A stretch of DNA of 56,833 nucleotides from IMG/VR virus record IMGVR_UViG_3300013108_000466, positions 1-56,833 of that record; one strand, given 5' to 3'. This document shows, piece after piece, positions 4,440-56,833 of this stretch. The translations under genes and the position numbers were made by a program. This stretch comes from a virus. How positions within the stretch are numbered: position 1 is the stretch's first letter; the number at the start of each line of letters is the position of its first letter. Below the pieces are notes generated by a model. The model ran no database searches, had not been told where the DNA came from, and saw nothing but the letters and a program-made list of their open reading frames with translations.

Positions 4440-4946
4440 ATGGCATACGCAAACGTATTAGGAACAAATGAAATGTTAGAACAGCAAGTAATTAGAGCTA
4501 GTCACTATTACTGGGATAACAGAGTAATGCAAGCAGATAGATTTATCTGGTCTTGGGTTAATAGAAAAGAACCATCTACATTTGGTGGTAATCAAGAAGG
4601 ATTAGCTGCTGGAGCAACTGCAATTACAGTTGCAAATTTATTTGACAGTACTGAATCTTTAAACTCTCAATATCATGCACACTTAGGTCAAACACCTACA
4701 GGACCAATTAGTGTAGCAATGCCTACAGCAGCACAATTAATCGCTGGATTAGGAATGATTGTTGGTGATTATTTTGAATTTTCATATACCAACTTATCAG
4801 GTAATGTAATTACAGTAACTGGAAACGCAGGTGGTCTTACAGAAGTAGGATTAATGACAATTGCTGCAAACACAACAGCAAGATTTAGAGTTTACATATC
4901 TGCAGTAGGTTCAGGTGTAGAAGCTGGATCATTAATAAGAATATAA
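4440..4946 (+). CDS. Virion surface/decoration-like protein, paralogue 2
   Basis: 168 residues, second of three tandem paralogues. The N-terminal signature is YYWDNRVMQADRFIWSWV (about 24-41). The C-terminal half has the beta pattern 'AAQLIAGLG...GDYFEF...N...TVTGNAG...' ending in an Arg-containing strand. This half closely resembles repeat modules in marine phage structural proteins in which hydrophobic strands alternate with Asn/Thr/Gly turns. Position in the virion is unknown; a surface-exposed role is inferred. Confidence 0.65.
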   Translation: MAYANVLGTNEMLEQQVIRASHYYWDNRVMQADRFIWSWVNRKEPSTFGGNQEGLAAGATAITVANLFDSTESLNSQYHAHLGQTPTGPISVAMPTAAQLIAGLGMIVGDYFEFSYTNLSGNVITVTGNAGGLTEVGLMTIAANTTARFRVYISAVGSGVEAGSLIRI

Positions 4947-4973
4947 TTTAATTTAAAATAAAAAAATAAAGCC

Positions 4974-5483
4974 ATGGCGGGAACAAGAGGAACAACATTA
5001 ACACCAAACGAATTATACTACGGTATTGAAAAAACATTCAGTGGTGGAGAAAGATATATTTGGAATAGCCAAGTATTAAAAGCAAACGATATAGTGTATA
5101 GTTTTCAAAACGTAGATACACCTATCAACTATCAACCAGCTCACGAAGCAGCTGCAGATGATGCTTTAACAGTTACACCAACAATAATTAAAAAACAAAT
5201 TATTGTGTGTACACCATCAGCAGCTAGAAATTTCACAACTTCTACAGCAGCAGTAATTATTGACGGATTATTTGGTGGATCTAGCGGAACAGCAAGTCAC
5301 CAAGTATATGAAATGTATAAATTACATATAATTAATGCAGCAGCTGCAACTCATGCAATCACATTAGTAGGTGGTTCAGGAGTAACAGTAGTAGGTAATG
5401 CAGTAGTAGCAGCTAATTCAGCAGCATCATTTGATATTTCATTAGCATCAGCAACAACTATTTCAGCATTAAGAGCTAGCTAA
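4974..5483 (+). CDS. Virion surface/decoration-like protein, paralogue 3
   Basis: 169 residues, third tandem paralogue. The signature YIWNSQVLKANDIVYSF (about 28-44) corresponds to the blocks in the two upstream genes. The C-terminal half is very Ala/Thr/Val-rich with G-V-T-V-V-G-N-A, matching the same strand in paralogue 1. It is followed by a strong terminator at 5545, which closes the three-gene unit. Paralogue divergence is high, so specialisation rather than recent duplication is likely. Confidence 0.65.
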   Translation: MAGTRGTTLTPNELYYGIEKTFSGGERYIWNSQVLKANDIVYSFQNVDTPINYQPAHEAAADDALTVTPTIIKKQIIVCTPSAARNFTTSTAAVIIDGLFGGSSGTASHQVYEMYKLHIINAAAATHAITLVGGSGVTVVGNAVVAANSAASFDISLASATTISALRAS

Positions 5484-5544
5484 AAATAAATTTTACAGTC
5501 TGATTCATAGCCAGACGATTATTATAAATTAAATTAAGAGATCT

Positions 5545-5576
5545 GTGGCCTCCATTTGGAGGTCACATTTTTTTTT
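5545..5576 (+). terminator. Strong rho-independent terminator overlapping the next promoter
   Basis: GTGGCCTCC (5545-5553) and GGAGGTCAC (5558-5566) form a 9-bp stem (one G-U) with loop ATTT, followed by nine T. The 3' arm begins with the last G of the TTGGA -33 element of the downstream promoter. Confidence 0.85.
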
Positions 5577-5584
5577 CGTATATT
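5556..5584 (+). promoter_or_regulatory. Bacteroidota-type promoter (TTGGA-N18-CG-TATATT)
   Basis: TTG at 5556-5558 and TATATT at 5579-5584, 20 nt apart, with CG directly before the -7 box. It is one of seven copies with identical spacing. It drives the FAD oxidoreductase gene. Confidence 0.75.
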
Positions 5585-5606
5585 GAAACATAAATTAAAT
5601 TCTAGA

Positions 5607-6896
5607 ATGGGCAAAAACGTAGTAATTATTGGAGCAGGAGTAGCAGGTGTAAACGCAGCTACAAAATTAGTTGATAATGACTTTGATGGTCAAATCACTA
5701 TTATTGATATGGGTAAAGATCCATACAAAAGACCTTATGAAGAGGTAATGACTGGATATCTAGGAGCAGGAGGTTGGTCTGATGGTAAATTAACTTATTC
5801 TACTCAAATTGGTGGACAATTATCTAAATATGTAGGTGATGAAAAGGCAATGGAGTTAATGAAGCAAGTAGTAGATAATTTTGAAAGATTTCACCCACAC
5901 CCAGAGCAAATAGTATTATCATCTCCAGATAAAGAACCAGATTTTATTAAACCATACTTTGGTTTAAGATTATTCCCAGTATGGCACATTGGTACTGATT
6001 ATTTACATGAAATTGGTAAAAGTTGGTATGACTATTTAGTATCTAAAGGTGTTCAATTTTATTGGGAAACTAAGGTTACAGATATTGATTTTGAGGGTCA
6101 AGTTGTATTTTTAGATGAAGAAGGAGATTCATATGAAGTATATGATACACTTATTTTTGGTGTAGGTAAATCAGGTATTGATTTTACTTCTGAAATAATG
6201 CAAAAATACGATTTGCCAACAGAAGAAAAACCAGCTCAAGTAGGTGTTAGATTTGAAGCACCACAAAAGCACTTTCAAAAATTAATTGATATTGCTTATG
6301 ATTTTAAGCTATATAGAAAAATGGATAATGTTAGTTTAAGATCATTTTGTACAAATAATAATGCTGCATATGTAGCAGTAGAAGAAACATATGGAGATCA
6401 TTCCTATAATGGGCACGCCAAAAAAGATGAAAGTTATAGGAATGATATGACGAATTTTGGTATTTTGATGGAAGTTAGAGGTATAGAAAAGCCATTTAAA
6501 TGGGCTAGAGAATTAGTAGGTAAAGTACAAGAAAATAGTACAGGTTTATTTTATAGTCCTACTAGAGAACCTTCAACAACATCAGAAGGAATAGATGTAT
6601 CAGCTACTAAAATAGATAATTTAGATGTAGTTAGAGATGCATTCCAAGGATATTTTAAATATATTGATGATTTTATCAATGATATGAAATTAGTATTTCC
6701 TACGTTGAAAGACGATTGGGGAATCTATGTACCTGAGGTAAAATATCTAGCTCCTGAACCGCTGGTTAATTATAATGACCTTTCATTAACCAAATACCCA
6801 AATGTTCACTTTGTAGGAGATGCCCTTTCTGCAAGAGGTATTTCGGTATCGGGAGCTCATGGTACATTAGTAGCTGAAAGCATTTTGGAAAATTAA
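5607..6896 (+). CDS. FAD-dependent oxidoreductase/dehydrogenase
   Basis: 429 residues from ATG 5607; the longer in-frame start at 5556 lies inside the terminator/promoter and is rejected. The N-terminus has a Rossmann dinucleotide-binding motif (VVIIGAGVAGVNAA, residues 4-17). The middle carries an FGVGKSG segment and a V-G-V-R-F-E motif typical of uncharacterised FAD-utilising dehydrogenases. The C-terminus reads V-G-D-A-L-S-A-R-G-I-S-V-S-G-A-H-G, where FAD families place the Gly-Asp that contacts the flavin. The substrate is unknown. It stands at the head of a metabolic operon with its own promoter. A full-length enzyme of this kind is unusual for a T4-like phage and suggests acquisition from a host. 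Confidence 0.8.
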   Translation: MGKNVVIIGAGVAGVNAATKLVDNDFDGQITIIDMGKDPYKRPYEEVMTGYLGAGGWSDGKLTYSTQIGGQLSKYVGDEKAMELMKQVVDNFERFHPHPEQIVLSSPDKEPDFIKPYFGLRLFPVWHIGTDYLHEIGKSWYDYLVSKGVQFYWETKVTDIDFEGQVVFLDEEGDSYEVYDTLIFGVGKSGIDFTSEIMQKYDLPTEEKPAQVGVRFEAPQKHFQKLIDIAYDFKLYRKMDNVSLRSFCTNNNAAYVAVEETYGDHSYNGHAKKDESYRNDMTNFGILMEVRGIEKPFKWARELVGKVQENSTGLFYSPTREPSTTSEGIDVSATKIDNLDVVRDAFQGYFKYIDDFINDMKLVFPTLKDDWGIYVPEVKYLAPEPLVNYNDLSLTKYPNVHFVGDALSARGISVSGAHGTLVAESILEN

Positions 6897-6913: not shown

Positions 6914-7177
6914 ATGGATATGGAAAATAAATTTAAAGAATGGCCTAGGAGCCAAAGATTAAAAAAAGCTGATGGTACAATAGCTTATATTTGGGATAAT
7001 AAATTACACAATTGGGAGGGACCAGCTCTAATACCAGAGGGTAATGAAAAGAAAGCAGAATATTATCTCTATGGTATTCAATATAGTAAAGAAGAACATA
7101 AAGAAGCAATTCGAAATCAAACTGGATTACCTTGGTATAAACAACCAGCACCTAAAGGACAAAATCATAGAAATTAA
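6914..7177 (+). CDS. Small phage protein with WEGPA/EYYLYG motifs
   Basis: 87 residues from ATG 6914; a second ATG at 6920 is probably the true start because the promoter's -7 box ends at 6913, so the mRNA would begin near 6920 and be leaderless. The sequence has a pattern common in small phage proteins: a Trp-rich strand IWDNKLHNWEGPA, then EYYLYGIQYSKEEH, reminiscent of MORN-like 'GPA...YYxxG' units. Function is unknown. The gene is followed by a 1-nt overlap with the nucleotidyltransferase. Confidence 0.65.
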   Translation: MDMENKFKEWPRSQRLKKADGTIAYIWDNKLHNWEGPALIPEGNEKKAEYYLYGIQYSKEEHKEAIRNQTGLPWYKQPAPKGQNHRN

Positions 7178-7599
7178 TGAAGAAAAAAGCAGTTATAGTA
7201 AGTGGTTATTTTAATCCTTTACATAAAGGACATATAGAATACTTTCATAATGCTAAATCATTAGGAGGAGAACTTTGGGTTTTAGTTAATAATGATAAAC
7301 AAAGGGAATTAAAAGGTTCTAAAGAATTCCAAAATGAAGACGAAAGATGTTTAATAATTACTGAACTAACAGTAGTAGATAGATGTATATTGTCTTTAGA
7401 TGAAGATAGGACAGTTGTGGAATCATTAAAATCAATACACTATCAATTTAATGATGAATATGATTTATTCTTTGCTAATGGAGGAGATCAAAATAATGAA
7501 AGTATCCCAGAAAGCGTGATTTGTAATGAATTAGGCATTACATTGATAGATGGATTAGGTGATAAAATACAATCAAGTAGTTGGTTATTAAATAAATAA
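7177..7599 (+). CDS. Cytidylyltransferase-like nucleotidyltransferase
   Basis: 140 residues. The N-terminus SGYFNPLHKGHIEYF contains the H-x-G-H signature (HKGH) of the nucleotidylyltransferase superfamily. VNND followed by KG, an Arg-containing segment before VDR, FANGGDQ, and a C-terminal SSS match the layout of glycerol-phosphate cytidylyltransferase and RfaE/HldE-type domains more than that of NMN adenylyltransferases. It would transfer a nucleotide from CTP or ATP to a phosphorylated small molecule; the substrate is not deducible. It sits 1 nt from a P-loop kinase, so the pair may act in sequence. Confidence 0.75.
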   Translation: MKKKAVIVSGYFNPLHKGHIEYFHNAKSLGGELWVLVNNDKQRELKGSKEFQNEDERCLIITELTVVDRCILSLDEDRTVVESLKSIHYQFNDEYDLFFANGGDQNNESIPESVICNELGITLIDGLGDKIQSSSWLLNK

Positions 7600-7600
7600 T

Positions 7601-8131
7601 ATGAAAATAGGTTTATGTGGTACAATGAGTGTAGGTAAAACTACATTAGTTAATGCTTTAAAAGAAACAAAACAATTTAAGAAATACAATTTTGCTACAG
7701 AACGTAGTAAATATTTAAACGATTTAGGTATTCCATTGAATACTGATTCTACATTAAAAGGTCAAACTGTATTTTTAGCTGAAAGATGTGCTGAATTAAT
7801 GCAAGATAATATCATAACTGACAGAACTATTATTGATGTTATGGCATTTACTCAAAATGCTAAATCTATACCTTATCAAGATAAAGATAAATTCGTTGAT
7901 TATGCTAAAGAATTCATCAGAGAATATGATTATATTTTTTATATTTCTCCTGAAGGTCTTCCTATTGAAGATAATGGTGTAAGAGAAACTGATGAACATT
8001 ATAGAGATGTTATAGATTTTACTATAACAAGTTTTATAAGAAAATATGCTTATATGATGAATAATATAGAAACTATTAAAGGTAGTACAGAGGAGCGAGT
8101 TGAGCAAATTTTAAAGTTTACTAACCTTTAA
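7601..8131 (+). CDS. P-loop small-molecule kinase (NadR-kinase-like AAA family)
   Basis: 176 residues. Walker A is GTMSVGKTT (residues 7-15). ITDRTIIDVMAFT in the middle matches the substrate-side Asp-Arg motif of NadR ribosylnicotinamide kinase and related P-loop kinases. A lid-like Arg segment follows near the C-terminus. Likely ATP-dependent phosphorylation of a nucleoside or sugar; the substrate is unknown. The gene follows the nucleotidyltransferase by 1 nt. Together they recall the two enzymatic halves of NadR, but the upstream partner looks more like a cytidylyltransferase, so NAD salvage is only one option. Confidence 0.7.
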   Translation: MKIGLCGTMSVGKTTLVNALKETKQFKKYNFATERSKYLNDLGIPLNTDSTLKGQTVFLAERCAELMQDNIITDRTIIDVMAFTQNAKSIPYQDKDKFVDYAKEFIREYDYIFYISPEGLPIEDNGVRETDEHYRDVIDFTITSFIRKYAYMMNNIETIKGSTEERVEQILKFTNL

Positions 8132-12734: not shown

Positions 12735-13598
12735 ATGAAAATAAAACACTCAAAATTTAAAAATACTGGTATATTATTCGAATTACTAGTAAGACAGATA
12801 ACGGCAGACACATTAAAAGGAGGAGATTCTCCTGCAATTGATATACTTAAAGAATATTTTGTAAAAACAGAATTGGGACGTGAGTATAAATTGTATGAAT
12901 CAATTCTTAAATCAAAAGTCTTAAATGAAGGCAGAGCTAATTCTCTAATTTCAACTACTTTAGAAATGTCTAAAAAGTTTAATAGATCTGTACTTAGAAA
13001 ACAAAAGTATAATTTGATTAACGAAATCAAAAAACATTATAATTTAGAATCTTTCTTTGGTTCTAAAGTAAAAAATTATAAAGAAATAGCTTCTATTTAT
13101 ACTTTAATAGAAAGTTATAACTATAAGGAAGTTACTAATTTAGATCAAATTAATAATAATAAAGTTACATTACTAGAATTTTTAACTAAATCACCAGTTT
13201 CTAAAAAATCAAAAGATGAAGTAATTAATGAATTTTCTACTTATGACAAGGATTTGAGAACTTTAACATATAAAATATTGTTAGAAAAATTTAATGATAA
13301 GTACGATGGTCTAAGTATAGAACAAAAAGAAATACTTAAAGAATTTATATACTCAGTAGATTCAACACCATCATTAAGAGAATTTTATAATAATAAAGTT
13401 AATATATTAAAAGATAAATTAACTGAAATGTCTACAAATATAAAAGACAAAGCTACTAAAATTAAAATTACAGAAGTAGCTAAATTATTAACTGAGTTAA
13501 ATAAAACTGATAAAGTAGATAATGATAATTTAGTTGATTTGTTACAATATTACGAACTAGTAAAAGAAATACAAGTAGCAAATGGCGTACAAATATAA
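12735..13598 (+). CDS. Hypothetical protein downstream of portal
   Basis: 287 residues from ATG 12735; an in-frame TTG at 12732 is less likely. The product is entirely helical-looking and Lys-rich, with 'FELLVRQITADTL' near the N-terminus. No catalytic motif, membrane segment or targeting site is seen. Its position between portal and the core/protease genes suggests a role in prohead assembly, but this is inference from synteny only. It overlaps the next start by 17 nt. Confidence 0.75.
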   Translation: MKIKHSKFKNTGILFELLVRQITADTLKGGDSPAIDILKEYFVKTELGREYKLYESILKSKVLNEGRANSLISTTLEMSKKFNRSVLRKQKYNLINEIKKHYNLESFFGSKVKNYKEIASIYTLIESYNYKEVTNLDQINNNKVTLLEFLTKSPVSKKSKDEVINEFSTYDKDLRTLTYKILLEKFNDKYDGLSIEQKEILKEFIYSVDSTPSLREFYNNKVNILKDKLTEMSTNIKDKATKIKITEVAKLLTELNKTDKVDNDNLVDLLQYYELVKEIQVANGVQI

Positions 13599-14745
13599 AC
13601 TTAGTGAAATGTCTAAAACTGCTTCATCTGAAGAAGCAGCAAAAGAACTAAAGCGCAAACCAGGAGAAGGATTTGAGGTTGGGCAAGTCATGTATAGTGA
13701 TGATGGAACAAGAAAATCTACCATTACTAAAATTGACAGTGAAACCGGTGCAGTATCTTGGAGAATTGATCAATTACCTGGATTTGATAAGTTATATGAT
13801 GAAATGGATGATCTAGTTAATGTAGCTAAAAGAGTTTATACTAAAACTAAAGATGATAAGAAATTTAGAGAATTTTACGAAACTGCTCGTAAATTAAGAA
13901 ATGCAATTAGAACACATCTTAGAAACGAATACCCAGACGAATATAAAAATATAGTAGGTATAAATGAAGTAGATGTTGTAGATCTAGCTCCTGGTACTCA
14001 GGTAAAAGCTAAAAATTATATTAAAGATGCTCCAACATTTGCTGATACTATGTTAGATATTAGTGATGAAATATTAGATGGAGAAAGTGATACTATTATT
14101 AATAACCCACAAATTAAACAAGCACTAAATTTATTAAAAAAAGTTGGTACTGTAGAAGAAGCATTTGATGAATTAGATGATGGGTTTGATAAAAACATGG
14201 AAGATCTAATAAAAGCAGGATCTAGATTAAACCCAGAAAGATTTGAAGATGTAATTTACTATATCCATAATAATTGGATGGCAGGTAATTATGGTGATGA
14301 TTATGCTATAAGAAGAATAAGTAAATATCTTAATGAAAATGTAGACGAAGCTTCTATGTCAGGTGCGGCTGGTGCTTATTTAACTCCATATGCTTTTAGA
14401 TTACCTAAAAAAAAGAAAAAGAAAGAAATTAAAGAAGCATTACAATTAGTACATGTTTATGATAAAGATGGTAAAATGTATGGTACTGGTTCAGTTGAAA
14501 AAGTAGAAGGTGATAAAACAACAGTAAGATTTGATGGTAGTACAGTTAAAAGATTTCCTAGCGACAGAGTAAAACCGGTAAAAGAAGGAGTAGGAGCAAC
14601 ATTAGGTCCAGGCCCTAAGGCAGGTCCTGATGGAGTTACAGATAGTGCGTATGTAAAACAGTTTAAATATAAACTAGTTCCTAAAACTAAAAATGGTACT
14701 TATGTACAAAAAGGCTCAGGACTCGAAGTAAACAAACTTTTTTAA
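13582..14745 (+). CDS. Virion-associated hypothetical protein with Lys-rich linker
   Basis: 387 residues. The N-terminal part is mixed alpha/beta. A segment SGAAGAYLTPYAFRLPKKKKKK (about 255-276) combines a motif often seen in phage head-associated proteins with a poly-Lys stretch. A compact beta-domain about 287-330 (VHVYDKDGKMYGTGSVEKVEG) looks KOW/SH3-like. It sits where T4 encodes small core proteins (gp67/gp68) but is much larger. Probably incorporated in the prohead; function unknown. Confidence 0.7.
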   Translation: MAYKYKLSEMSKTASSEEAAKELKRKPGEGFEVGQVMYSDDGTRKSTITKIDSETGAVSWRIDQLPGFDKLYDEMDDLVNVAKRVYTKTKDDKKFREFYETARKLRNAIRTHLRNEYPDEYKNIVGINEVDVVDLAPGTQVKAKNYIKDAPTFADTMLDISDEILDGESDTIINNPQIKQALNLLKKVGTVEEAFDELDDGFDKNMEDLIKAGSRLNPERFEDVIYYIHNNWMAGNYGDDYAIRRISKYLNENVDEASMSGAAGAYLTPYAFRLPKKKKKKEIKEALQLVHVYDKDGKMYGTGSVEKVEGDKTTVRFDGSTVKRFPSDRVKPVKEGVGATLGPGPKAGPDGVTDSAYVKQFKYKLVPKTKNGTYVQKGSGLEVNKLF

Positions 14746-50568: not shown

Positions 50569-50691
50569 ATGTTTAAAAAGTTCAGAAACAAATTCAAACA
50601 AGAAATCGACGCAATTACTGGATTTCTATTTATCGCTTTAGTATTTTATATGTTATATTTTAGTTTATGGGTTTTTTGCCCTTGTGGATAA
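50569..50691 (+). CDS. Small single-TM protein (40 residues)
   Basis: ATG 50569 to TAA 50689-50691. A basic N-terminus (MFKKFRNKFKQE) is followed by one hydrophobic helix (about 15-36) ending C-P-C-G. It lies 25 nt downstream of a promoter -7 box and 1 nt before the next ATG, so it is very likely translated. Function unknown; last gene of the envelope island. Confidence 0.6.
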   Translation: MFKKFRNKFKQEIDAITGFLFIALVFYMLYFSLWVFCPCG

Positions 50692-50692
50692 T

Positions 50693-51190
50693 ATGTTTAA
50701 AGTAGCTCATAGTAGAAAATTTATTGAAAAGCGTTTAACTGAATTCCAAAAGTTGAATTATAATCAGTTTAGATGGTGGAGATGGTATGAAGCAAAAAAC
50801 AAACCATTACCAAATAAAGCTGATTTAAGGGATAAAATAATGAATGGTGACTTTGAATGTGGTCCTTATTCATTACAAGCTCAGTTATGTGAGCATATGT
50901 TAAATGATATCTATGAAGAATGTGTACCTGATTTGCAAATGTATTTAGAAAAATCTAAATTACTAAGTGCAAGAAGGAAGAGGTTATGGGAAGATCATGA
51001 AAAGGATGAAAATGGGAAGATTAATGATCTTATAAGTGAATTCAAGAAAAACTTTCGTATCACGAAAGATGAAATATATCAGGAGATTGATATATGTATG
51101 GGTACAATATTAGATTTGTATTATCAAATCGAAGAGAAGTATAGTAAAATTTATATAAAAAGTCGCAGAGGGCGACCGGCAAAAAAATGA
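50693..51190 (+). CDS. Hypothetical protein with AT-hook-like C-terminus
   Basis: 165 residues from ATG 50693; the GTG at 50684 is less likely. Helical, charged, with a Trp/Arg-rich patch (QFRWWRWYE, about 25-33) and a terminal R-R-G-R-P-A-K-K, an AT-hook core. DNA binding is plausible. The stop overlaps the next start as ATGA. Confidence 0.65.
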   Translation: MFKVAHSRKFIEKRLTEFQKLNYNQFRWWRWYEAKNKPLPNKADLRDKIMNGDFECGPYSLQAQLCEHMLNDIYEECVPDLQMYLEKSKLLSARRKRLWEDHEKDENGKINDLISEFKKNFRITKDEIYQEIDICMGTILDLYYQIEEKYSKIYIKSRRGRPAKK

Positions 51191-51375: not shown

Positions 51376-52182
51376 ATGAAAGTAAGTCACGAAGTACCTC
51401 GCTGTTTATTAACAGCATCCCCTGAATTTAATGACTATGACTACTGTCTGCCTCATTTATTAGATCAGGATGAAGAATATAAACAATATTTTTATGATGC
51501 TAAAAAATCAGGACGATATATCATTATGGATAATTCGTTACATGAATTAGGAGAAGCATATAAATGGGATAGATTACACCATTGGATTAAAGAATTAGAA
51601 CCAGATGAATTTATAGTACCTGATGTTTGGATGAATTATGCCCAAACACATGCTCAAGCAAAGTATTGGATACAACATAGTTATCCAGAAAATACTACAC
51701 CAGTAGCTGTAGTACAAGGAGAAGATAAAGGTAAAGCATTTCAGTGTTATAGAGCTTTAAAAGAATTAGGTTATAAAAAATTAGCAATATCTTATGGTGC
51801 TGATTGGTATAATGATTTACATCCTCACCCAAATAAGGATTTAGGTAAAGCATTAGGTAGAATAAATTTTGTAAGTAGTTTATATTCTGGAGGATTAATT
51901 GATAAGTATGACAGAATACATTTACTTGGTTGTTGTGTACCACAAGAATTTGGATGGTATAGAGGATACAAGGAAATAGAATCAATTGATACTTCAAACC
52001 CAGTAATGGCTGCTTTAGAAGGAACTTTATATTGGGAAGATGGTTTATCATCAAAACCCAAAGCAAATATGAATGATCATTTTGATATTGATTTTAAAGA
52101 AATTACTTATGAGGATGTTATTCATAATACAACATTATTTAGAGAAATTAATGGAATACCAAAAATAGAAAATTATGGCTAA
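51376..52182 (+). CDS. dpdA: DpdA-like DNA guanine transglycosylase (TGT fold)
   Basis: 268 residues. TGT/DpdA-type features in order: Y-I-I-M-D-N-S-L-H-E-L-G (about 48-59), E-F-I-V-P-D-V-W (about 77-84), V-A-V-V-Q-G (about 109-114), H-L-L-G-C (about 190-194) and I-D-T-S-N-P-V (about 214-220), where TGTs keep their catalytic Asp residues and substrate pocket. The tRNA-TGT zinc motif is absent, as in phage DpdA proteins. It would exchange guanine in phage DNA for a 7-deazaguanine base made by the FolE, QueD, QueE and QueC homologues in this window. The subfamily cannot be set from sequence reading alone. Confidence 0.75.
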   Translation: MKVSHEVPRCLLTASPEFNDYDYCLPHLLDQDEEYKQYFYDAKKSGRYIIMDNSLHELGEAYKWDRLHHWIKELEPDEFIVPDVWMNYAQTHAQAKYWIQHSYPENTTPVAVVQGEDKGKAFQCYRALKELGYKKLAISYGADWYNDLHPHPNKDLGKALGRINFVSSLYSGGLIDKYDRIHLLGCCVPQEFGWYRGYKEIESIDTSNPVMAALEGTLYWEDGLSSKPKANMNDHFDIDFKEITYEDVIHNTTLFREINGIPKIENYG

Positions 52183-52372
52183 ATTAACAAGAACAGTAAA
52201 TTATTGCAACTTCAGATGGGAAGAATATATCTTAACAGAAGAAGAATTAGCAAAATGGAAAACAGGTGATGAAGACCTTCAACAAGAAATTATAGATGAT
52301 GCAGATTGGGACCTGGTAAGAGATAAACCGATTGATGATTACGGTGACGTAGAATTTAAAGAAGAAGATTAA
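52175..52372 (+). CDS. Small acidic hypothetical protein in the modification cluster
   Basis: 65 residues; overlaps the dpdA stop by 8 nt. Glu/Asp-rich C-terminus (DYGDVEFKEED); N-terminus NYCNFRWEEYILTEEELAKW. Strong acidity suggests a protein partner or DNA mimic, but nothing identifies it. Confidence 0.6.
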   Translation: MAKLTRTVNYCNFRWEEYILTEEELAKWKTGDEDLQQEIIDDADWDLVRDKPIDDYGDVEFKEED

Positions 52373-52373
52373 T

Positions 52374-52571
52374 ATGGTAGAAGTAATAAAACATGCATTA
52401 GGATTTTGTGGAGAACATTGGCATCCAAATATTTGGACCCTTCTTACAGGAGGATTTGGATTAGCAGCAATCTATTCGTATACTATATCCTATATAAAAT
52501 GTAGATATAATAAATTTAAAAAAGCGTTTGCCTATACGCTTAATAATACCTGGCAAAAATTTAAATTTTAA
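52374..52571 (+). CDS. Small membrane protein in the modification cluster
   Basis: 65 residues; starts 1 nt after the previous stop. One hydrophobic helix (about 21-41, LLTGGFGLAAIYSYTISYI) then a basic aromatic tail ending WQKFKF. Function unknown. Confidence 0.6.
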   Translation: MVEVIKHALGFCGEHWHPNIWTLLTGGFGLAAIYSYTISYIKCRYNKFKKAFAYTLNNTWQKFKF

Positions 52572-52576
52572 TTAAA

Positions 52577-53371
52577 ATGGCAAAACATTGTGTAGTTTCG
52601 TTAAGTGGTGGAATGGATAGCAGCACCCTATTGTTAAGAGCTATCAGCGAATATGATACTGTAACAGGTATCTCTTTTGATTACGGTCAAAAGCATAGAG
52701 TAGAGCTTCAAAAAGCTCAATCTTTAATTGATTACCTTGCTAGTAAAGGTCATAAAGTAAATTATAGACAAATTAAACTAGATGGTTTAGTAGACTTACT
52801 AGATTCAGCTTTAGTTCAAGGAGGAGATGATGTACCAGAAGGACATTATGAGCAAGACAATATGAAAGAAACAGTTGTTCCTAATAGGAATAAAATGTTT
52901 GCTTCTATTACTCAAGCAGTAGCTTTATCTATTGCTAATAGAACACAAGAACCAACAGATATCGCTTTAGGTATTCATGCTGGTGATCATGCAGTTTACC
53001 CTGACTGTAGACAAGAATTTAGAGATGCAGATGATGCAGCTTTTAGAATCGGTAATTGGGAAGCCGATAGAGTAGGTTACTTTACACCTTATTTAGATAC
53101 AGATAAATTAGGAATTTTACAAGATGGAGAAAAATTGGTTGAAACGTTGGGTATTGACTTTAATGAAGTCTATAAAAGAACGAATACATCATACAAACCC
53201 TATCCTAGTGGAAATTCTGATTATAAGTCTGCTTCTAGTGTTGAGAGGATTGAGGCATTTATTGCTTTGGGTAGAAAAGATCCTGTCACTTATGAGGATG
53301 AAAGTGGAGTGGTTCCTTACGAAGTAGCTGAAGCTCACGTAAAACAAGTATTAGCTGAATATTCAGCTTAA
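52577..53371 (+). CDS. queC: QueC-like ATP-pyrophosphatase without the zinc-cysteine site
   Basis: 264 residues. PP-loop S-G-G-M-D-S-S (about 9-15), D-Y-G-Q-K-H (about 34-39), V-P-N-R-N-K (about 103-108) and G-I-H-A-G-D-H match QueC (7-cyano-7-deazaguanine synthase). The C-terminal zinc site of standard QueC, T-x-S-C-Y ... C-G-x-C-x-x-C-x-x-R, aligns with T-N-T-S205-Y ... D215-Y-K-S218-A-S-S221-V-E-R, so all four Cys are replaced. The overall spacing is kept, so the fold is probably intact. It may make preQ0 without zinc, or stop at the amide, or act on another carboxylate. A tRNA-Ala follows 7 nt later. Confidence 0.8.
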   Translation: MAKHCVVSLSGGMDSSTLLLRAISEYDTVTGISFDYGQKHRVELQKAQSLIDYLASKGHKVNYRQIKLDGLVDLLDSALVQGGDDVPEGHYEQDNMKETVVPNRNKMFASITQAVALSIANRTQEPTDIALGIHAGDHAVYPDCRQEFRDADDAAFRIGNWEADRVGYFTPYLDTDKLGILQDGEKLVETLGIDFNEVYKRTNTSYKPYPSGNSDYKSASSVERIEAFIALGRKDPVTYEDESGVVPYEVAEAHVKQVLAEYSA

Positions 53372-53378
53372 TACAGGA

Positions 53379-53452
53379 GGGGGATTAGCTCAGCTGGCTA
53401 GAGCACTTGATTTGCATTCAAGAGGTCATCGGTTCGACTCCGATATCCTCCA
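53379..53452 (+). tRNA. tRNA-Ala (anticodon TGC)
   Basis: 74 nt. Acceptor GGGGGAT/ATCCTCC includes the G3-U70 pair that specifies alanine. The anticodon loop is TTTGCAT with stem CTTGA/TCAAG; T-arm ATCGG-TTCGACT-CCGAT; discriminator A. CCA is not fully encoded. All canonical arms are present. Confidence 0.95.
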
Positions 53453-53473
53453 CAAATTTTTAAACTAGAAATT

Positions 53474-53953
53474 ATGAGTAAATTAAAAGAGAAGTTTGGT
53501 AAGTACTTTCAATTCAAAAATACCATTAATGGAACAGATTATTTCCTAAGAGGATTAGCAATGTTACTATTTATTATTCCAATTGGAATCCTTATTGGAG
53601 TTGGAATAGGAATAATGGCAGCAGGTGGAAATGGGCTTTTAGCTGGTATTCTTGTTTTATTAGGAGCGTTATTAGTTATACCAATGATGTGGTTTTCACT
53701 AGCAACAACTTATAAAAGAATCAATTCATTCTTTCCTAAGAAAGCAACATTACTAACAGTACTAACATTTTTATTCTCGTTTGTTCTTGAAGGAGTTAAT
53801 CCTAATAGTACAAATGGTTTAGATTTTGAAAATCCATCACCAATGGTTAGTCCTTTAGAAAGTCCTATCTACATAGTACTTTTATTGGTATCATTAGTAT
53901 GGAGTTTCTATTTACTATTTGGTAATTCAAAAGTTAAGAAACATATAGGATAG
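53474..53953 (+). CDS. Polytopic membrane protein (DUF805-like)
   Basis: 159 residues with about four hydrophobic segments (about 29-50, 53-75, 93-107, 129-147). 'FQFKNTINGTDYFLRGLAMLL' and 'MMWFSLATTYKRINSFFP' resemble DUF805-family inner-membrane proteins. It sits between two tRNA genes. Function unknown. Confidence 0.65.
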   Translation: MSKLKEKFGKYFQFKNTINGTDYFLRGLAMLLFIIPIGILIGVGIGIMAAGGNGLLAGILVLLGALLVIPMMWFSLATTYKRINSFFPKKATLLTVLTFLFSFVLEGVNPNSTNGLDFENPSPMVSPLESPIYIVLLLVSLVWSFYLLFGNSKVKKHIG

Positions 53954-53959
53954 TACAAA

Positions 53960-54032
53960 TGGCTCGTGGTGTAACTGGCAACACGTCTGGTTTTGGTCCA
54001 GAAGAGTCTAGGTTCGATCCCTAGCGAGCCAA
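53960..54032 (+). tRNA. tRNA-Gln (anticodon TTG)
   Basis: 73 nt. Acceptor TGGCTCG/CGAGCCA with T1-A72, D-arm GTGT/ACAC, anticodon loop TTTTGGT on stem TCTGG/CCAGA, T-arm CTAGG-TTCGATC-CCTAG, discriminator A. Canonical cloverleaf. Confidence 0.95.
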
Positions 54033-54043
54033 CGTAAAAAATA

Positions 54044-54185
54044 TGCCCAGTAGAGCAGTAGGTAGCTCGCTTTGGCTTAACTCGACGCGAAGTTGAACTT
54101 TAACGTGAAGGGTAACTTGTAATACAATCGATCGTGAAAAGCAAAGAGGTCAAAGAGGTCACAGGTTCGAGTCCTGTCTGGGTCA
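54044..54185 (+). tRNA. tRNA-like gene with a ~69-nt insertion in the anticodon arm
   Basis: Acceptor halves TGCCCAG (54044-54050) and CTGGGTC (54178-54184), D-arm GAGC-AGTAGGTA-GCTC with GG and A11-U24, and T-arm ACAGG-TTCGAGT-CCTGT are all intact. Pair 1-72 is T-C (mismatch), which together with A11-U24 recalls initiator tRNA. The anticodon stem CTTTG (54070-54074) can pair with either of two tandem copies of CAAAGAGGT (54142-54159), and 76 nt separate the stem halves instead of 7. No conventional anticodon can be read. It may be an intron-containing tRNA of unknown type, a regulatory tRNA-like RNA or a decayed gene. Confidence 0.6.
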
Positions 54186-54190
54186 ACAAA

Positions 54191-54276
54191 GTAGTAGTTC
54201 CTGAAAGTCTGTAAAAAGACGAATGAGAGAATAAAAATAGTCCTATGACTTCCCTTTCAGGTCTCTCCGCTACTAC
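54191..54276 (+). ncRNA. Structured RNA with nested stems and a pseudoknot
   Basis: P1 GTAGTAG (54191-54197) with CTACTAC (54270-54276), 7 bp. P2 CCTGAAAG (54200-54207) with CTTTCAGG (54254-54261), 8 bp. Inside P2: P3 TCT/AGA (54208-54210 with 54217-54219) and P4 AGTC/GACT (54239-54242 with 54247-54250). GAGAGA in the P2 loop (54225-54230) can pair with TCTCTC (54262-54267), exactly the strand between P2 and P1, forming a 6-bp pseudoknot. It lies 5 nt after the tRNA-like gene and 16 nt before an ATG. I cannot assign it to a known class. Confidence 0.65.
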
Positions 54277-54292
54277 CTATTTAAATATTATT

Positions 54293-54496
54293 ATGAGAAA
54301 ATTTTTAGAAAATAAATACACAAAGTTAATATTTAGTATAGCAATTATGGGCTCTGCTATTCCTTCTATTTACAAAGACTTTACTTATGGTCATAGTGGT
54401 GAATGGACACATTATGGAATGATGTTAGTTGGAGTTTTATATTTTATTGAATCATTACTTTGGACATTAGACTTATGGCAACAAAAAAACAATTAA
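54293..54496 (+). CDS. Small two-TM membrane protein
   Basis: 67 residues from ATG 54293; the upstream in-frame ATG 54245 would lie inside the structured RNA. Two hydrophobic segments (about 11-27 and 42-60). It directly follows the pseudoknotted RNA and overlaps the CorA-like gene by 22 nt. Function unknown; it could be controlled by that RNA. Confidence 0.6.
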   Translation: MRKFLENKYTKLIFSIAIMGSAIPSIYKDFTYGHSGEWTHYGMMLVGVLYFIESLLWTLDLWQQKNN

Positions 54497-54858
54497 AAAG
54501 AGCATTAGAATATTACGAAGTTGTAATTTTTGAAAATAAAGATTATGATACTGATGATTTCTATAATTTAAAAAGAGAATTATTAAGAGGAGAACATTTA
54601 GATTTAATTCAAATATTTGAAGTGCTAGAAGACATTATTGAAAAAAGACATAATGATCTAATGAATCGTAGATTAAATTTATTAACAATATGGTCTACAA
54701 TATTCTTACCACTATCTTTTTATACTGGACTTTGGGGAATGAATTTTGATGATGTTCCTTTAATATCAGATGATCATGGATTTTGGATATTTGCAGTTTT
54801 AACTGTAGGTACAATAGTAGGAATGTGGTATTATTTTAAAAAGAATAAATGGATTTAG
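54475..54858 (+). CDS. CorA-like mini magnesium-channel protein
   Basis: 127 residues from ATG 54475. The long helix (about 30-62) leads into TM1, followed by Y-T-G-L-W-G-M-N-F, the G-M-N selectivity motif of CorA Mg2+ channels, a short acidic loop and TM2 (about 97-118) with a Lys-rich end. The large N-terminal cytoplasmic sensor domain of CorA (over 200 residues) is almost absent. It may be an unregulated or modified ion channel in the inner membrane. Confidence 0.7.
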   Translation: MATKKQLKRALEYYEVVIFENKDYDTDDFYNLKRELLRGEHLDLIQIFEVLEDIIEKRHNDLMNRRLNLLTIWSTIFLPLSFYTGLWGMNFDDVPLISDDHGFWIFAVLTVGTIVGMWYYFKKNKWI

Positions 54859-54887
54859 TTGGATTAGCTAATTCCATTTCGTATATT
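54859..54887 (+). promoter_or_regulatory. Bacteroidota-type promoter (TTGGA-N18-CG-TATATT)
   Basis: TTG 54859-54861, TATATT 54882-54887, spacing 20 nt. An imperfect inverted repeat (TGGATTAG/CTAATTCCA) covers the -33 end and spacer. It drives the thioredoxin-queD-queE-folE operon. Confidence 0.75.
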
Positions 54888-54909
54888 AACGTTAAACAAT
54901 AAAAATCAA

Positions 54910-55158
54910 ATGGCAAAAATTATTTATTTTACAGCTCCGTGGTGTGGTCCTTGTAAAGCATTAGGCCCAGTAATGGAAAAATTAAGTCATTCAATTCCTA
55001 TTCATAAAGTGAATATTGATAATGACACAAATAAGGCAACTCATTATTCTGTTAGAAGTGTTCCTACTCTAATTAAAGTAGATGAACAAAATAATGAAAT
55101 AAAGAGAACAGTAGGTAATCAATCAGAACAAGATATATTAAATTGGTATAATGGGTAA
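54910..55158 (+). CDS. Thioredoxin
   Basis: 82 residues, a short thioredoxin. Active site A-P-W11-C12-G-P-C15 and cis-Pro motif R-S-V-P-T-L are intact. It could reduce the class I ribonucleotide reductase encoded at 42484-45186 or keep biosynthetic enzymes reduced. It overlaps the QueD-like gene by 8 nt. Confidence 0.88.
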   Translation: MAKIIYFTAPWCGPCKALGPVMEKLSHSIPIHKVNIDNDTNKATHYSVRSVPTLIKVDEQNNEIKRTVGNQSEQDILNWYNG

Positions 55159-55615
55159 ATTTCAATCAAGTAAAGTATTTGACGGATTTAGTACAGTGTT
55201 CCGTCAGTGGAAAGCAACGACAACACACTGTAGATTTGTACATGGTTATGGAATATCTTTTAAAGTATATTTTGAAGGAGAATTAGATGAAAGAAATTGG
55301 GTGTGGGATTTTGGTGGTATGAAAAGAGCAAAAACTAAAATCGATGGTAAATCACCTAAAGAATGGATGGATTATATGTTTGACCACACTTTAGTAGTGG
55401 CAGAAGATGATCCTGAATTATTAGCATTTCAACAAATGGATAAAGCGGGTGTAGCTCAAGTAAGAGTAATTCCAGCTACTGGCGCAGAGAAATTTGCTGA
55501 ATATATTTATAACAAGCTTAACGAGTTCGTTGATACTGAAACTGAAGGTAGAGTTAGAGTTACCAAAGTTAAGTTCATGGAACATGGTAAAAACGCAGCT
55601 TGTTACGTAGAATAA
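55151..55615 (+). CDS. queD: QueD-like 6-carboxytetrahydropterin synthase family protein
   Basis: 154 residues. Family features: H26-C27-R-F-V-H31-G-Y33 (catalytic Cys and zinc region), V-W-D-F-G-G-M-K (about 66-73, the DF...K motif), F-D-H-T-L-V-V (about 93-99) and A-E-K-F-A-E-Y-I (Glu). The usual H-G-H zinc pair is H-G-Y here, and the first His ligand is not at its standard spacing (only H26, adjacent to the Cys). It likely acts after FolE in the 7-deazaguanine pathway; altered chemistry is possible. Confidence 0.75.
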   Translation: MGKFQSSKVFDGFSTVFRQWKATTTHCRFVHGYGISFKVYFEGELDERNWVWDFGGMKRAKTKIDGKSPKEWMDYMFDHTLVVAEDDPELLAFQQMDKAGVAQVRVIPATGAEKFAEYIYNKLNEFVDTETEGRVRVTKVKFMEHGKNAACYVE

Positions 55616-55657
55616 GTTATAACAGTGAATGAAAAACCACTTTAAAAAATTAACAAT

Positions 55658-56443
55658 ATGCACAAACAATTGAAACGTATCGAGGATTACGATAAAAACC
55701 TCCCCATTGTAGAAATTTACACTGCAGTACAATCAGAAGGCTCAAGAGCAGGATACCCAACAGTAGTTATTAGAACAACAGGATGCACCCACAGATGCTA
55801 TTTTGGCGAAGGTGGATGGTGTGACAGTTGGTATACAAGTATCCACCCAGAAAAAGGTCATTTTAACTTTAAAGACATTATTGCCATGTATGAGAAAAAC
55901 CCTCATATAAAGGAAATGATGTTGACTGGAGGTTCACCTACTATGCATGCTGCTTTAGTAAATGAATTAACTCACTTCGCACATGAAAACGATATATTCA
56001 TTACTATTGAAACTGAAGGATCACATTTCCTTCCTACTGATTATCCTATTAATCTCCTGTCAATTTCTCCTAAGTTTAGTAATAGTGTCCCCGTTGTTGG
56101 TACTCTTACTCCTCAAGGAAAAGTTACAGACGAAAAAATGGTAAAACAACATAATAAGTTAAGACTTAATTATGATGCAATTAAACAATCAATAGCTTAT
56201 CATTCTGACTTTCATATTAAACCAGTATGGGATGGTAAAGATCAAAAAGCATTAGCTGAAATTATGGATTGTCTAGCTCAATTAGAAGTTAAACCTGAAA
56301 AAGTATGGTTTATGCCAGCAGGTGATTCTAGAGAAGCGTTATTTAAATCTTATCCTGTATTATTTGATTGGGTAAGAGATAATGGTTATAGAATGACTTG
56401 GAGACCACATATTATTGCTTTTGAAGATAAACGAGAAGTATAG
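55658..56443 (+). CDS. queE: QueE-like radical SAM 7-carboxy-7-deazaguanine synthase
   Basis: 261 residues. The N-terminal substrate strand I-Y-T-A-V-Q-S-E-G matches QueE. The Fe-S Cys motif is C43-x3-C47-x7-C55 rather than Cx3Cx2C, a five-residue expansion; variant spacings are known in QueE. The SAM motif is T-G-G-S-P (usually T-G-G-E-P). The C-terminal 'KPEKVWFMPAG' and 'WRPHIIAF' fit QueE. It makes 7-carboxy-7-deazaguanine for the QueC-like step. The stop overlaps a GTG-started small ORF by 1 nt. Confidence 0.85.
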   Translation: MHKQLKRIEDYDKNLPIVEIYTAVQSEGSRAGYPTVVIRTTGCTHRCYFGEGGWCDSWYTSIHPEKGHFNFKDIIAMYEKNPHIKEMMLTGGSPTMHAALVNELTHFAHENDIFITIETEGSHFLPTDYPINLLSISPKFSNSVPVVGTLTPQGKVTDEKMVKQHNKLRLNYDAIKQSIAYHSDFHIKPVWDGKDQKALAEIMDCLAQLEVKPEKVWFMPAGDSREALFKSYPVLFDWVRDNGYRMTWRPHIIAFEDKREV

Positions 56444-56580
56444 TGGATAAGCAAGAAGCTCTTCGTATATTAGAAGATATCAAAGAAAATGTACACGTTT
56501 GTTGTGCCATAACAATGGAACCAGATGAAGTACTAGTATTAATAGATAAATTAGAAAGTTATATAAATGAACAATCGTAG
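56443..56580 (+). CDS. Small ORF between queE and folE
   Basis: GTG at 56443 shares one base with the queE stop; 45 residues to TAG 56578-56580, overlapping the folE ATG by 14 nt. The product starts VDKQEALRILEDIKENV and has a Cys-Cys pair and a helical acidic second half (EPDEVLVLIDKLES). Tight packing supports translation, but the GTG start and lack of a known family keep confidence modest. Confidence 0.5.
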   Translation: MDKQEALRILEDIKENVHVCCAITMEPDEVLVLIDKLESYINEQS

Positions 56581-56833
56581 AAAAAACCACAAAGATTTAG
56601 AGGTAGTACAAGAGGGATTCGCAAATGGAGTTGCACCCGGGTTTCCTCTAAACGATAAAGAAAAACAAAAAATGATAAATAAGGCTACTAAAGCCTATGC
56701 TCGATTTTTAGAAGCATTAAAATGTGATTGGCAGAATGATCCCAACTCAGCTGATACTCCTATGAGAGTAGCTAAAGCATATGTAAATGATTTATGGGCT
56801 GGTAGATACACACAGATGTCTCCAATTACATCA
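56567..56833 (+). CDS. folE: GTP cyclohydrolase I, 3'-partial
   Basis: 89 codons from ATG 56567 to the window end, still open. D-P-N-S-A-D-T-P-M-R-V-A-K-A-Y-V (about 61-76) is the conserved N-terminal FolE motif, followed by D-L-W-A-G-R-Y. FolE converts GTP to dihydroneopterin triphosphate, the first step of both folate and 7-deazaguanine synthesis. With QueD, QueE and QueC homologues upstream it completes the modification pathway. The catalytic zinc residues lie beyond the window. Confidence 0.85.
   Translation, partial: MNNRRKNHKDLEVVQEGFANGVAPGFPLNDKEKQKMINKATKAYARFLEALKCDWQNDPNSADTPMRVAKAYVNDLWAGRYTQMSPITS

Follow-up and report, generated by a model that had tools for sequence, protein, structure and literature searches.

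Background

All of the dG in the DNA of phages CP220 and CPt10 (100%) is present as dADG (PMC8306585). Phages CAjan, 9g and Rosebush carry dPreQ0 or dG+, which in CAjan and Rosebush amounts to about 28-32% of G (PMC6884629). We have analysed a window of 56,833 nucleotides, the whole stretch of IMG/VR record IMGVR_UViG_3300013108_000466, whose source is a marine, T4-like phage. Its last 5.5 kb correspond, in all probability, to a phage operon for 7-deazaguanine modification of DNA, to which guanine recycling by a phosphoribosyltransferase (PRTase) would be added in the relatives. The gene set, the fold of the transglycosylase, the conservation of catalytic residues and the grouping with the CP220 family all support the operon.

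Gene content and conservation of the cluster

An initial annotation described a complete 7-deazaguanine pathway at this locus. The genes that it named are indeed there, with the DpdA-like, QueC, QueD and QueE genes and the first third of FolE all located within positions 51376-56833 on the + strand (Table 1), but the word complete has to be qualified because the record ends inside FolE. Only 89 of about 230 amino acids of FolE are encoded, the zinc and catalytic residues fall beyond the end, and the five-gene pathway is complete in relatives only. The elements described between the enzymes were all recovered, including tRNA-Ala, tRNA-Gln, the thioredoxin and the mini-CorA, which is a C-terminal CorA (PF01544, 1.4e-20), and the RNA that had been noted as unusual is a tRNA-like gene with an enlarged anticodon loop. 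The window also encodes NrdAB and a dNMP-kinase-like gene.

The cluster was found again in 80 IMG/VR loci, in most of which the order DpdA-QueC-Trx-QueD-QueE-FolE is kept. All five genes are present in 41 fetched loci, with their order mostly unchanged, and the thioredoxin gene adjoins QueD in most relatives. This recurrence, together with the purifying selection acting on the five enzyme genes (dN/dS well below 1), indicates that the cluster is not a product of chance. The conserved hypothetical protein encoded directly upstream of DpdA, for which a family search gave no match, is possibly a further member.

Table 1. Features of the 7-deazaguanine cluster and their positions in the window
Feature	Coordinates	Strand	Remarks
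Conserved hypothetical protein	50684..51190	+	Directly upstream of DpdA; present in 74 loci
DpdA-type DNA guanine transglycosylase (predicted), compact	51376..52182	+	268 aa; CP220/immuto family phrog_19058
QueC, zinc-less subfamily	52577..53371	+	Pfam PF06508, 1.2e-37
tRNA-Ala (TGC)	53379..53453	+	Not a queuosine (GUN) target
tRNA-Gln (TTG)	53960..54033	+	Not a queuosine (GUN) target
tRNA-like RNA	54044..54185	+	67-nt insert in anticodon loop; within the cluster
Thioredoxin (WCGPC)	54910..55158	+	4.8e-17; 3' end overlaps QueD start
QueD-like (PTPS fold family)	55151..55615	+	PTPS 2.5e-14; phrog QueD-like 5e-40
QueE-like radical SAM enzyme	55658..56443	+	NCBIfam QueE 1.3e-15; phrog QueE-like 3e-53
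FolE (GTP cyclohydrolase I)	56567..56833	+	5' third only; NCBIfam 8.7e-6, phrog 2.1e-8

Altered metal sites in QueC, QueD and QueE

Three of the enzymes had been reported to depart from consensus, with a consequent doubt about the exact base. The departures are present, but they represent conserved traits of the clade and not a sign of uncertain function. The window QueC, in which no Gat domain was found, has in common with canonical QueC (PF06508 cluster 1, PMC13329287) the motifs SGGxDS, YxQxHxxE, VPxRN and YPDC as well as the equivalent of the essential Tyr189, whereas the CX8CXXCXXC zinc motif of the canonical enzyme is wholly replaced, the four cysteines being substituted by Ser205, Asp215, Ser218 and Ser221. 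The same S/D/S/S set stands in place of all four zinc cysteines in every one of 54 phage QueC copies. The zinc-less form occupies one side of the QueC tree (89/93). It also serves 16 cellular genomes as their only full-length QueC, and a TGT is encoded in 15 of them. These results suggest that a widespread marine lineage can do without the zinc motif by which the family is defined, a point of relevance to both the annotation and the mechanism of QueC.

In the window QueD, for which a PDB search retrieved only a spurious kinase, the E. coli zinc ligands H16 and H33 are replaced by F17 and Y33, while C27, H31, the D-H pair and the Glu residue are retained. The positions of the H16/H31/H33 triad are occupied in relatives by F, I or L, by H and by Y, respectively, and Cys27, the Asp-His pair and the C-terminal Glu are invariant (54/54). 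Phages phiST, phiSM, MA9V-3 and immuto have this altered pattern in common. Given such conservation, we assume that the window QueD would still make CPH4. The QueE cluster motif, canonically CX3CX2C, reads CX3CX7C in the window as a result of a five-residue insert between the second and third Cys; CX3CX7C was found in 49 sequences and CX3CX8C in three, with all three Cys retained, and inserts in this motif also occur in CP220, phiSM and HVTV-1.

It might be argued that the loss of four zinc Cys in QueC and of two of the three zinc ligands in QueD, together with the non-canonical spacing in QueE, reflects degeneration of a pathway that no longer makes the base. However, these substitutions have become fixed, or almost fixed, in 52-54 relatives, dN/dS is low, and the cellular genomes mentioned above have no other full-length QueC, all of which makes such a decay scarcely credible. 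We also considered a wholly zinc-free pathway, since QueC, QueD and DpdA are without canonical zinc ligands, and dropped it in view of FolE, whose zinc ligands (Cys, His, Cys) are retained in relatives, namely in 34 of the 35 rows of an alignment that includes the truncated window row.

A compact transglycosylase of the CP220 family

The DpdA-like identity proposed for the first enzyme of the cluster is upheld by its structure and by its relatives. The predicted structure (pLDDT 93) has a TGT-type TIM-barrel fold, for which Foldseek returned the TGT 2ash (1.5e-7) and, as second match, the solved DNA preQ0 insertase DpdA 7ui4 (6.1e-7). The matches from a sequence-profile search of the PDB, limited to designed TIM barrels and a single weak hit to a chaperone, were set aside. 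Two residues, Asp52 and Asp205, correspond in the alignment to the active-site Asp residues of E. coli TGT and are invariant in 70 of 70 homologues. The NCBIfam DpdA model matches the protein at 1e-4 only, which corresponds to 21.2 bits against a cut-off of 200 bits for the NF041059 equivalog, a 406-position model of longer DpdA. On the other hand, phrog_19058 takes in the proteins of CP220 (1.5e-181), immuto (3e-56) and the window (6.7e-41), and the closest named relatives are encoded by Flavobacterium phage immuto and by Firehammerviruses including CP220, whose enzyme we take to be DpdA3 (Cui 2023). HVTV-1 gene 83, which had been included tentatively when the DpdA proteins were aligned, is not a DpdA and was disregarded.

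Bacteria produce preQ0 for their tRNA with FolE, QueD, QueE and QueC, and tRNA genes lie within the cluster, so that the pathway could be thought to feed queuosine or preQ1 and to raise translation of phage mRNA, with the TGT-like protein acting on tRNA. This seems very improbable, since neither of the cluster anticodons is of the queuosine type and the protein is devoid of the region that holds the TGT zinc site. Moreover, the grouping with non-DNA enzymes that the initial annotation had named as decisive against a DNA role was not what we found, the protein falling instead with those of the CP220 family. We infer from these features that the window DpdA exchanges guanine in the phage DNA.

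A guanine phosphoribosyltransferase beside FolE in related phages

A guanine-type PRTase is encoded in the cluster of all 39 relatives that have a complete FolE and enough flanking sequence, belonging to the Gpt type in 33 and to the HPRT type in six, never both. These proteins, identified as xanthine-guanine or hypoxanthine-guanine PRTases, are about 32 distinct ones at 85% identity. The corresponding position lies beyond the window end, outside this record, but the gene is probably present in this phage too, judging from locus L010, whose FolE and QueE are each 97% identical to those of the window. CP220, immuto and phiST also encode a PRTase. In immuto it is of the Gpt type and immediately upstream of FolE, whereas those of CP220 and phiST do not adjoin FolE, that of CP220 being distant (29-31% identity). 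In three other deazaguanine phages the PRTase is fused to FolE; a Stenotrophomonas phage has a Gpt-FolE fusion, and in PaMx25 it forms an N-terminal extension of FolE, gp38 as annotated being in the wrong frame. Near-constant presence, replacement of one family by another and fusion to FolE all support a link between the PRTase and the pathway.

Because PF00156 alone under-detects the Gpt type and missed CP220, a protein query was added. The search with the Gpt-like protein found matches in only 56 of 50,697 phage records and, among the matches listed, 46 of 50 could be assigned to deazaguanine-pathway phages from their gene content or an overlap with FolE, so that this protein can serve as a marker for finding such pathways; no Gpt-type PRTase was found in seven DpdA-less T4-like phages. 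The PRTase is not universal in 7-deazaguanine phages, since it was not found in CAjan, 9g, HVTV-1 or Godines (a Rosebush relative), and its proximity to the replication genes MazG and PolB makes a role in general purine salvage possible. In the literature searched, no link of a PRTase to the 7-deazaguanine pathway was found, which is weak evidence of novelty.

According to the mechanism that we propose, FolE, QueD, QueE and the zinc-less QueC would convert GTP into 7-amido- or 7-cyano-7-deazaguanine, and the compact DpdA would swap guanines of the replicated phage DNA for this base with release of free guanine, a step modelled on that deduced for CP220-type phages. One guanine would be released per modified residue and, as the 56.8 kb window has about 17,800 G residues over its two strands, near-complete replacement would set free a large guanine pool. 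The PRTase beside FolE in relatives would return this guanine, via GMP and GTP, to FolE, and would thereby help to push the exchange towards completion, while the modified base would conceal the phage DNA from host nucleases. We find it reasonably likely that the PRTase recycles the guanine expelled by DpdA, and lean, with somewhat less assurance, to the wider view that a PRTase of Gpt/HPRT type, coupled or fused to FolE, is a dedicated guanine-recycling component of phage 7-deazaguanine systems, which the marine clade pairs with a zinc-free QueC. If true, a FolE-tied PRTase would explain how replacement could be driven far in some phages, as in CP220.

It could also be the case that the PRTase makes a deazaguanine nucleotide, which kinases and ribonucleotide reductase would turn into a modified dGTP for incorporation by the polymerase, DpdA being accessory. 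According to a quotation in PMC6884629, Campylobacter phages were proposed to use a modified-dGTP route, and the NrdAB and dNMP-kinase-like genes of the window and the PRTases of CP220, immuto and relatives would fit it. We consider this route improbable, however, as every relative keeps a DpdA with both catalytic Asp residues, and the PRTase is fused to FolE, the GTP entry enzyme, and not to QueC or a kinase. Moreover, the PRTases are of the guanine/xanthine and hypoxanthine-guanine types, which use contacts to the purine N7, an atom missing from 7-deazaguanines. Recycling of guanine is the role that we prefer.

The modified base

The exact base had been regarded as uncertain owing to the enzyme departures, a doubt that the gene set reduces. 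No QueF (PF14489) was found in the window or in 15 relatives, no PF03883 and no DpdC-type domain in the window or relatives, and no formyltransferase in the window clade. The markers of dPreQ1 or dG+, namely QueF/QueF-L or Gat-QueC, are thus missing from the window cluster, and the lack of QueF, of a DpdC-type domain and of Gat-QueC narrows the base to the ADG or preQ0 level. We would give dADG about an even chance, and dPreQ0 is a possible but distinctly less favoured candidate. A high degree of dG replacement would be expected in this phage, whose virion DNA would be modified and protected from restriction.

Comparison with known systems

The DpdA systems of CAjan, 9g and Rosebush follow the same pathway logic, with the same enzyme set, as the window. 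They have, however, a DpdA of another family, to which tblastn with the window protein gave no match, and a canonical QueC or a Gat-QueC instead of the zinc-less form; unlike the relatives of the window, CAjan, 9g and Godines have no Gpt-like PRTase. Flavobacterium phage vB_FspM_immuto_2-6A, a culturable relative, is much closer, with identities to the window of 60% for the terminase, 68% for QueC, 72% for QueD, 83% for QueE and 36% for DpdA, and its QueC is also zinc-less. In contrast to the window clade, it carries QueF and a formyltransferase near DpdA, and hence its base is likely to be reduced or further decorated. The pathway genes of the Firehammervirus CP220 are scattered, whereas those of the window clade form a single cluster, and CP220 keeps the zinc Cys of QueC and, at their canonical places, the His ligands of QueD, which are altered in the window clade. 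In spite of these differences, its DpdA is of the same family as that of the window (phrog_19058, 37% identity over 97%), it has FolE, QueD, QueE and QueC with neither QueF nor a PF03883 domain, as does the window clade, and it encodes a Gpt-like PRTase, as do the relatives of the window.

Organization of the cluster and its relatives

The right end of the window carries, on the plus strand, genes for a DpdA-like transglycosylase, QueC, two tRNAs, a tRNA-like RNA, a small CorA, a thioredoxin, QueD, QueE and FolE; the tRNAs, unusual RNA, small CorA and thioredoxin that the initial annotation had placed among the pathway genes were all found. Its description of a complete pathway in one cluster held for DpdA, QueC, QueD and QueE, but not for FolE, of which only the first 89 codons are present, since the whole IMG/VR record (56,833 bases) ends within this gene. 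Portal, sheath, NrdAB and DnaB-like genes, together with a terminase that shares 60% identity with its counterpart in Flavobacterium phage vB_FspM_immuto_2-6A (immuto), fit a T4-like myovirus, and the host is probably a member of the Flavobacteriia.

When viral contigs were searched with the DpdA protein, 80 loci were recovered (55-86% identity), most of them with the order DpdA-QueC-Trx-QueD-QueE-FolE. All five enzyme genes are found in 41 loci, and dN/dS is low for all five enzymes. The tRNA-like gene is conserved in several relatives (11 stretches in IMG/VR), with inserts of 37-69 nt whose ends are near-invariant; the insert may represent a short intron, or else lengthen the anticodon arm, of a phage tRNA. 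A search of Rfam matched only the two ordinary tRNAs.

Coordinates and characteristics of individual features
Feature	Sequence	Coordinates	Remarks
Nucleotidyltransferase-like gene, then dNMP/thymidylate-kinase-like gene	Window	7177-8128	
tRNA-like gene	Window	54044-54185	Leu-UAA by ARAGORN; 67-nt insert in anticodon loop
Mini-CorA	Window	54460-54858	C-terminal membrane part only, with GMN motif; in few relatives
Thioredoxin	Window	54910-55158	Overlaps QueD start in most relatives, yet fast-evolving (44-79% identity)
MazG/PRA-PH pyrophosphohydrolase	L067 (relative)	13113-13754	About 1 kb after FolE
Gpt-FolE fusions	L228, L229, L230 (Stenotrophomonas, Sphingomonas and Pseudomonas phages)	4923-5816, 4941-5828, 4893-5786	

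The DpdA-like transglycosylase

The DpdA-type reading was sustained. One PHROG takes in the DpdA proteins of Campylobacter phage CP220, immuto and the window, and the residues aligned to the catalytic aspartates of TGT, Asp52 and Asp205, do not vary across 70 sequences. An AlphaFold2 model (56-sequence alignment, pLDDT 93) matched, in order, Thermotoga TGT (1.5e-7), 7ui4, the solved structure of the DNA preQ0 insertase DpdA (6.1e-7), and many TGTs; among viral models, a close named match was the phiST protein (1.1e-17). The best matches in isolated phages were immuto, at 36% (1e-46), and fourteen Campylobacter records, at 37% (1e-38), followed by weaker ones in phiST, MA9V-3 and Bacillus BSP7, and none in CAjan or 9g. 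The CP220-type subfamily has reportedly been named DpdA3 by Cui et al. in 2023 and tied to complete replacement.

Departures from consensus in QueC, QueD and QueE

The initial annotation had noted departures in three of the enzymes, and they were observed in QueC, QueD and QueE. QueC retains SGGxDS, YxQxHxxE, VPxRN, YPDC and the counterpart of E. coli Tyr189, a signature probed by mutation (PMC13329287), but its four zinc cysteines are replaced by S, D, S and S in 54 of 54 relatives. They are likewise gone in immuto, whereas CP220, phiSM, CAjan, Godines, HVTV-1 and 9g retain them. Scanning of bacterial and archaeal genomes located zinc-less QueC in marine archaea (Poseidoniales), Planctomycetes and some Gammaproteobacteria (stretches L113-L192), the archaeal genes often adjoining QueE. 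It is the sole full-length QueC in 16 of these genomes, 15 of which encode TGT, so that loss of the zinc site appears compatible with function. In the QueC tree the zinc-less sequences fall on one side (89/93), and the phage clade is nested there beside Legionella gresilensis, Cysteiniphilum and Thiotrichales sequences; deeper joins are unsafe owing to the long branches of the canonical references.

Two of the three zinc ligands are missing from QueD, as in phiST, phiSM and MA9V-3; its His26, Cys27, His31 and Tyr33 are invariant. The QueE cluster motif is CX3CX7C, and CP220, phiSM and HVTV-1 have inserts at the same place as the window QueE.

A guanine phosphoribosyltransferase beside FolE

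Clustering of neighbouring genes revealed a guanine-type phosphoribosyltransferase (PRTase) adjoining FolE in 40 loci. Among solved structures it is closest to purine PRTases of archaea and to xanthine-guanine PRTases (Gpt type), and NCBIfam assigns it to the xanthine PRTase type; at loci without it, a textbook HPRT lies next to FolE or nearby. Among the 39 loci in which FolE is complete and followed by more than 700 nt, some from related contigs and about 32 distinct at 85% identity, 33 have the Gpt type and 6 the HPRT type, none both and none neither, most of them overlapping FolE or at most 60 nt from it. At the base of the QueE tree, loci of the HPRT and Gpt types are interspersed. The PRTase is not within the window, whose record stops inside FolE; it is present in the relative L010, which shares 97% identity with the window in both FolE and QueE.

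A Gpt-like gene also occurs in immuto, CP220 and phiST. A tblastn search of 50,697 phage records with the Gpt-like protein matched only 56, and among the 50 listed, 46 are deazaguanine-gene phages, judged by earlier matches or overlap with a FolE annotation. Two phages, Stenotrophomonas phage ply2008005c and Sphingomonas phage MMDA13, have the PRTase as the N-terminal portion of FolE itself, directly adjoining DpdA; the MMDA13 paper describes FolE and nowhere mentions a phosphoribosyltransferase. The FolE frame of Pseudomonas phage PaMx25 stays open upstream across a PRTase, so the annotated folE start is too far downstream. The Gpt type was absent from seven terminase-related T4-like phages without a DpdA match (one of them carries a different PRTase, and another gives a weak match), and CAjan, 9g, HVTV-1, Godines, phiSM, BSP7 and MA9V-3 likewise lack it.

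Judged from sequence, the PRTase belongs to the operon, and a function with FolE is favoured both by its fusion to FolE and by the replacement of one guanine PRTase family with another at the same position. Base exchange with guanine release is established for the TGT family. DpdA would exchange DNA guanine for deazaguanine, and the PRTase would convert the released guanine to GMP, which host kinases would turn into GTP for FolE; such recycling would clear a competing product and return the purine to the pathway. It is unlikely that the PRTase instead produces deazaguanine nucleotides as a source of modified dGTP, a route suggested earlier in general terms for phages of Campylobacter (PMC6884629); its link to the PRTase is ours.

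In two records of 122-156 kb (L073, L079), DpdA, QueC, QueD and QueE are present and neither FolE nor PRTase was detected, which suggests that the two were possibly lost together. A MazG/PRA-PH pyrophosphohydrolase gene after FolE is conserved across 45 loci, and phiST and immuto have comparable genes close to FolE or DpdA; the enzyme is a possible pathway partner.

The modified base and comparison with known phages

Neither the window nor 15 relatives (five of 119-156 kb) showed a QueF domain, which immuto does have; a DpdC-type PF03883 domain was likewise absent, as was a formyltransferase outside immuto. Since some of these records are fragments, the absences are tentative. CP220 has the same set as the window clade, namely FolE, QueD, QueE, QueC and DpdA, without QueF and PF03883, and dADG has been reported to replace 100% of dG in the DNA of CP220 and CPt10 (PMC8306585). 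By analogy with CP220, our first guess for the modified base would be dADG, and our second dPreQ0.
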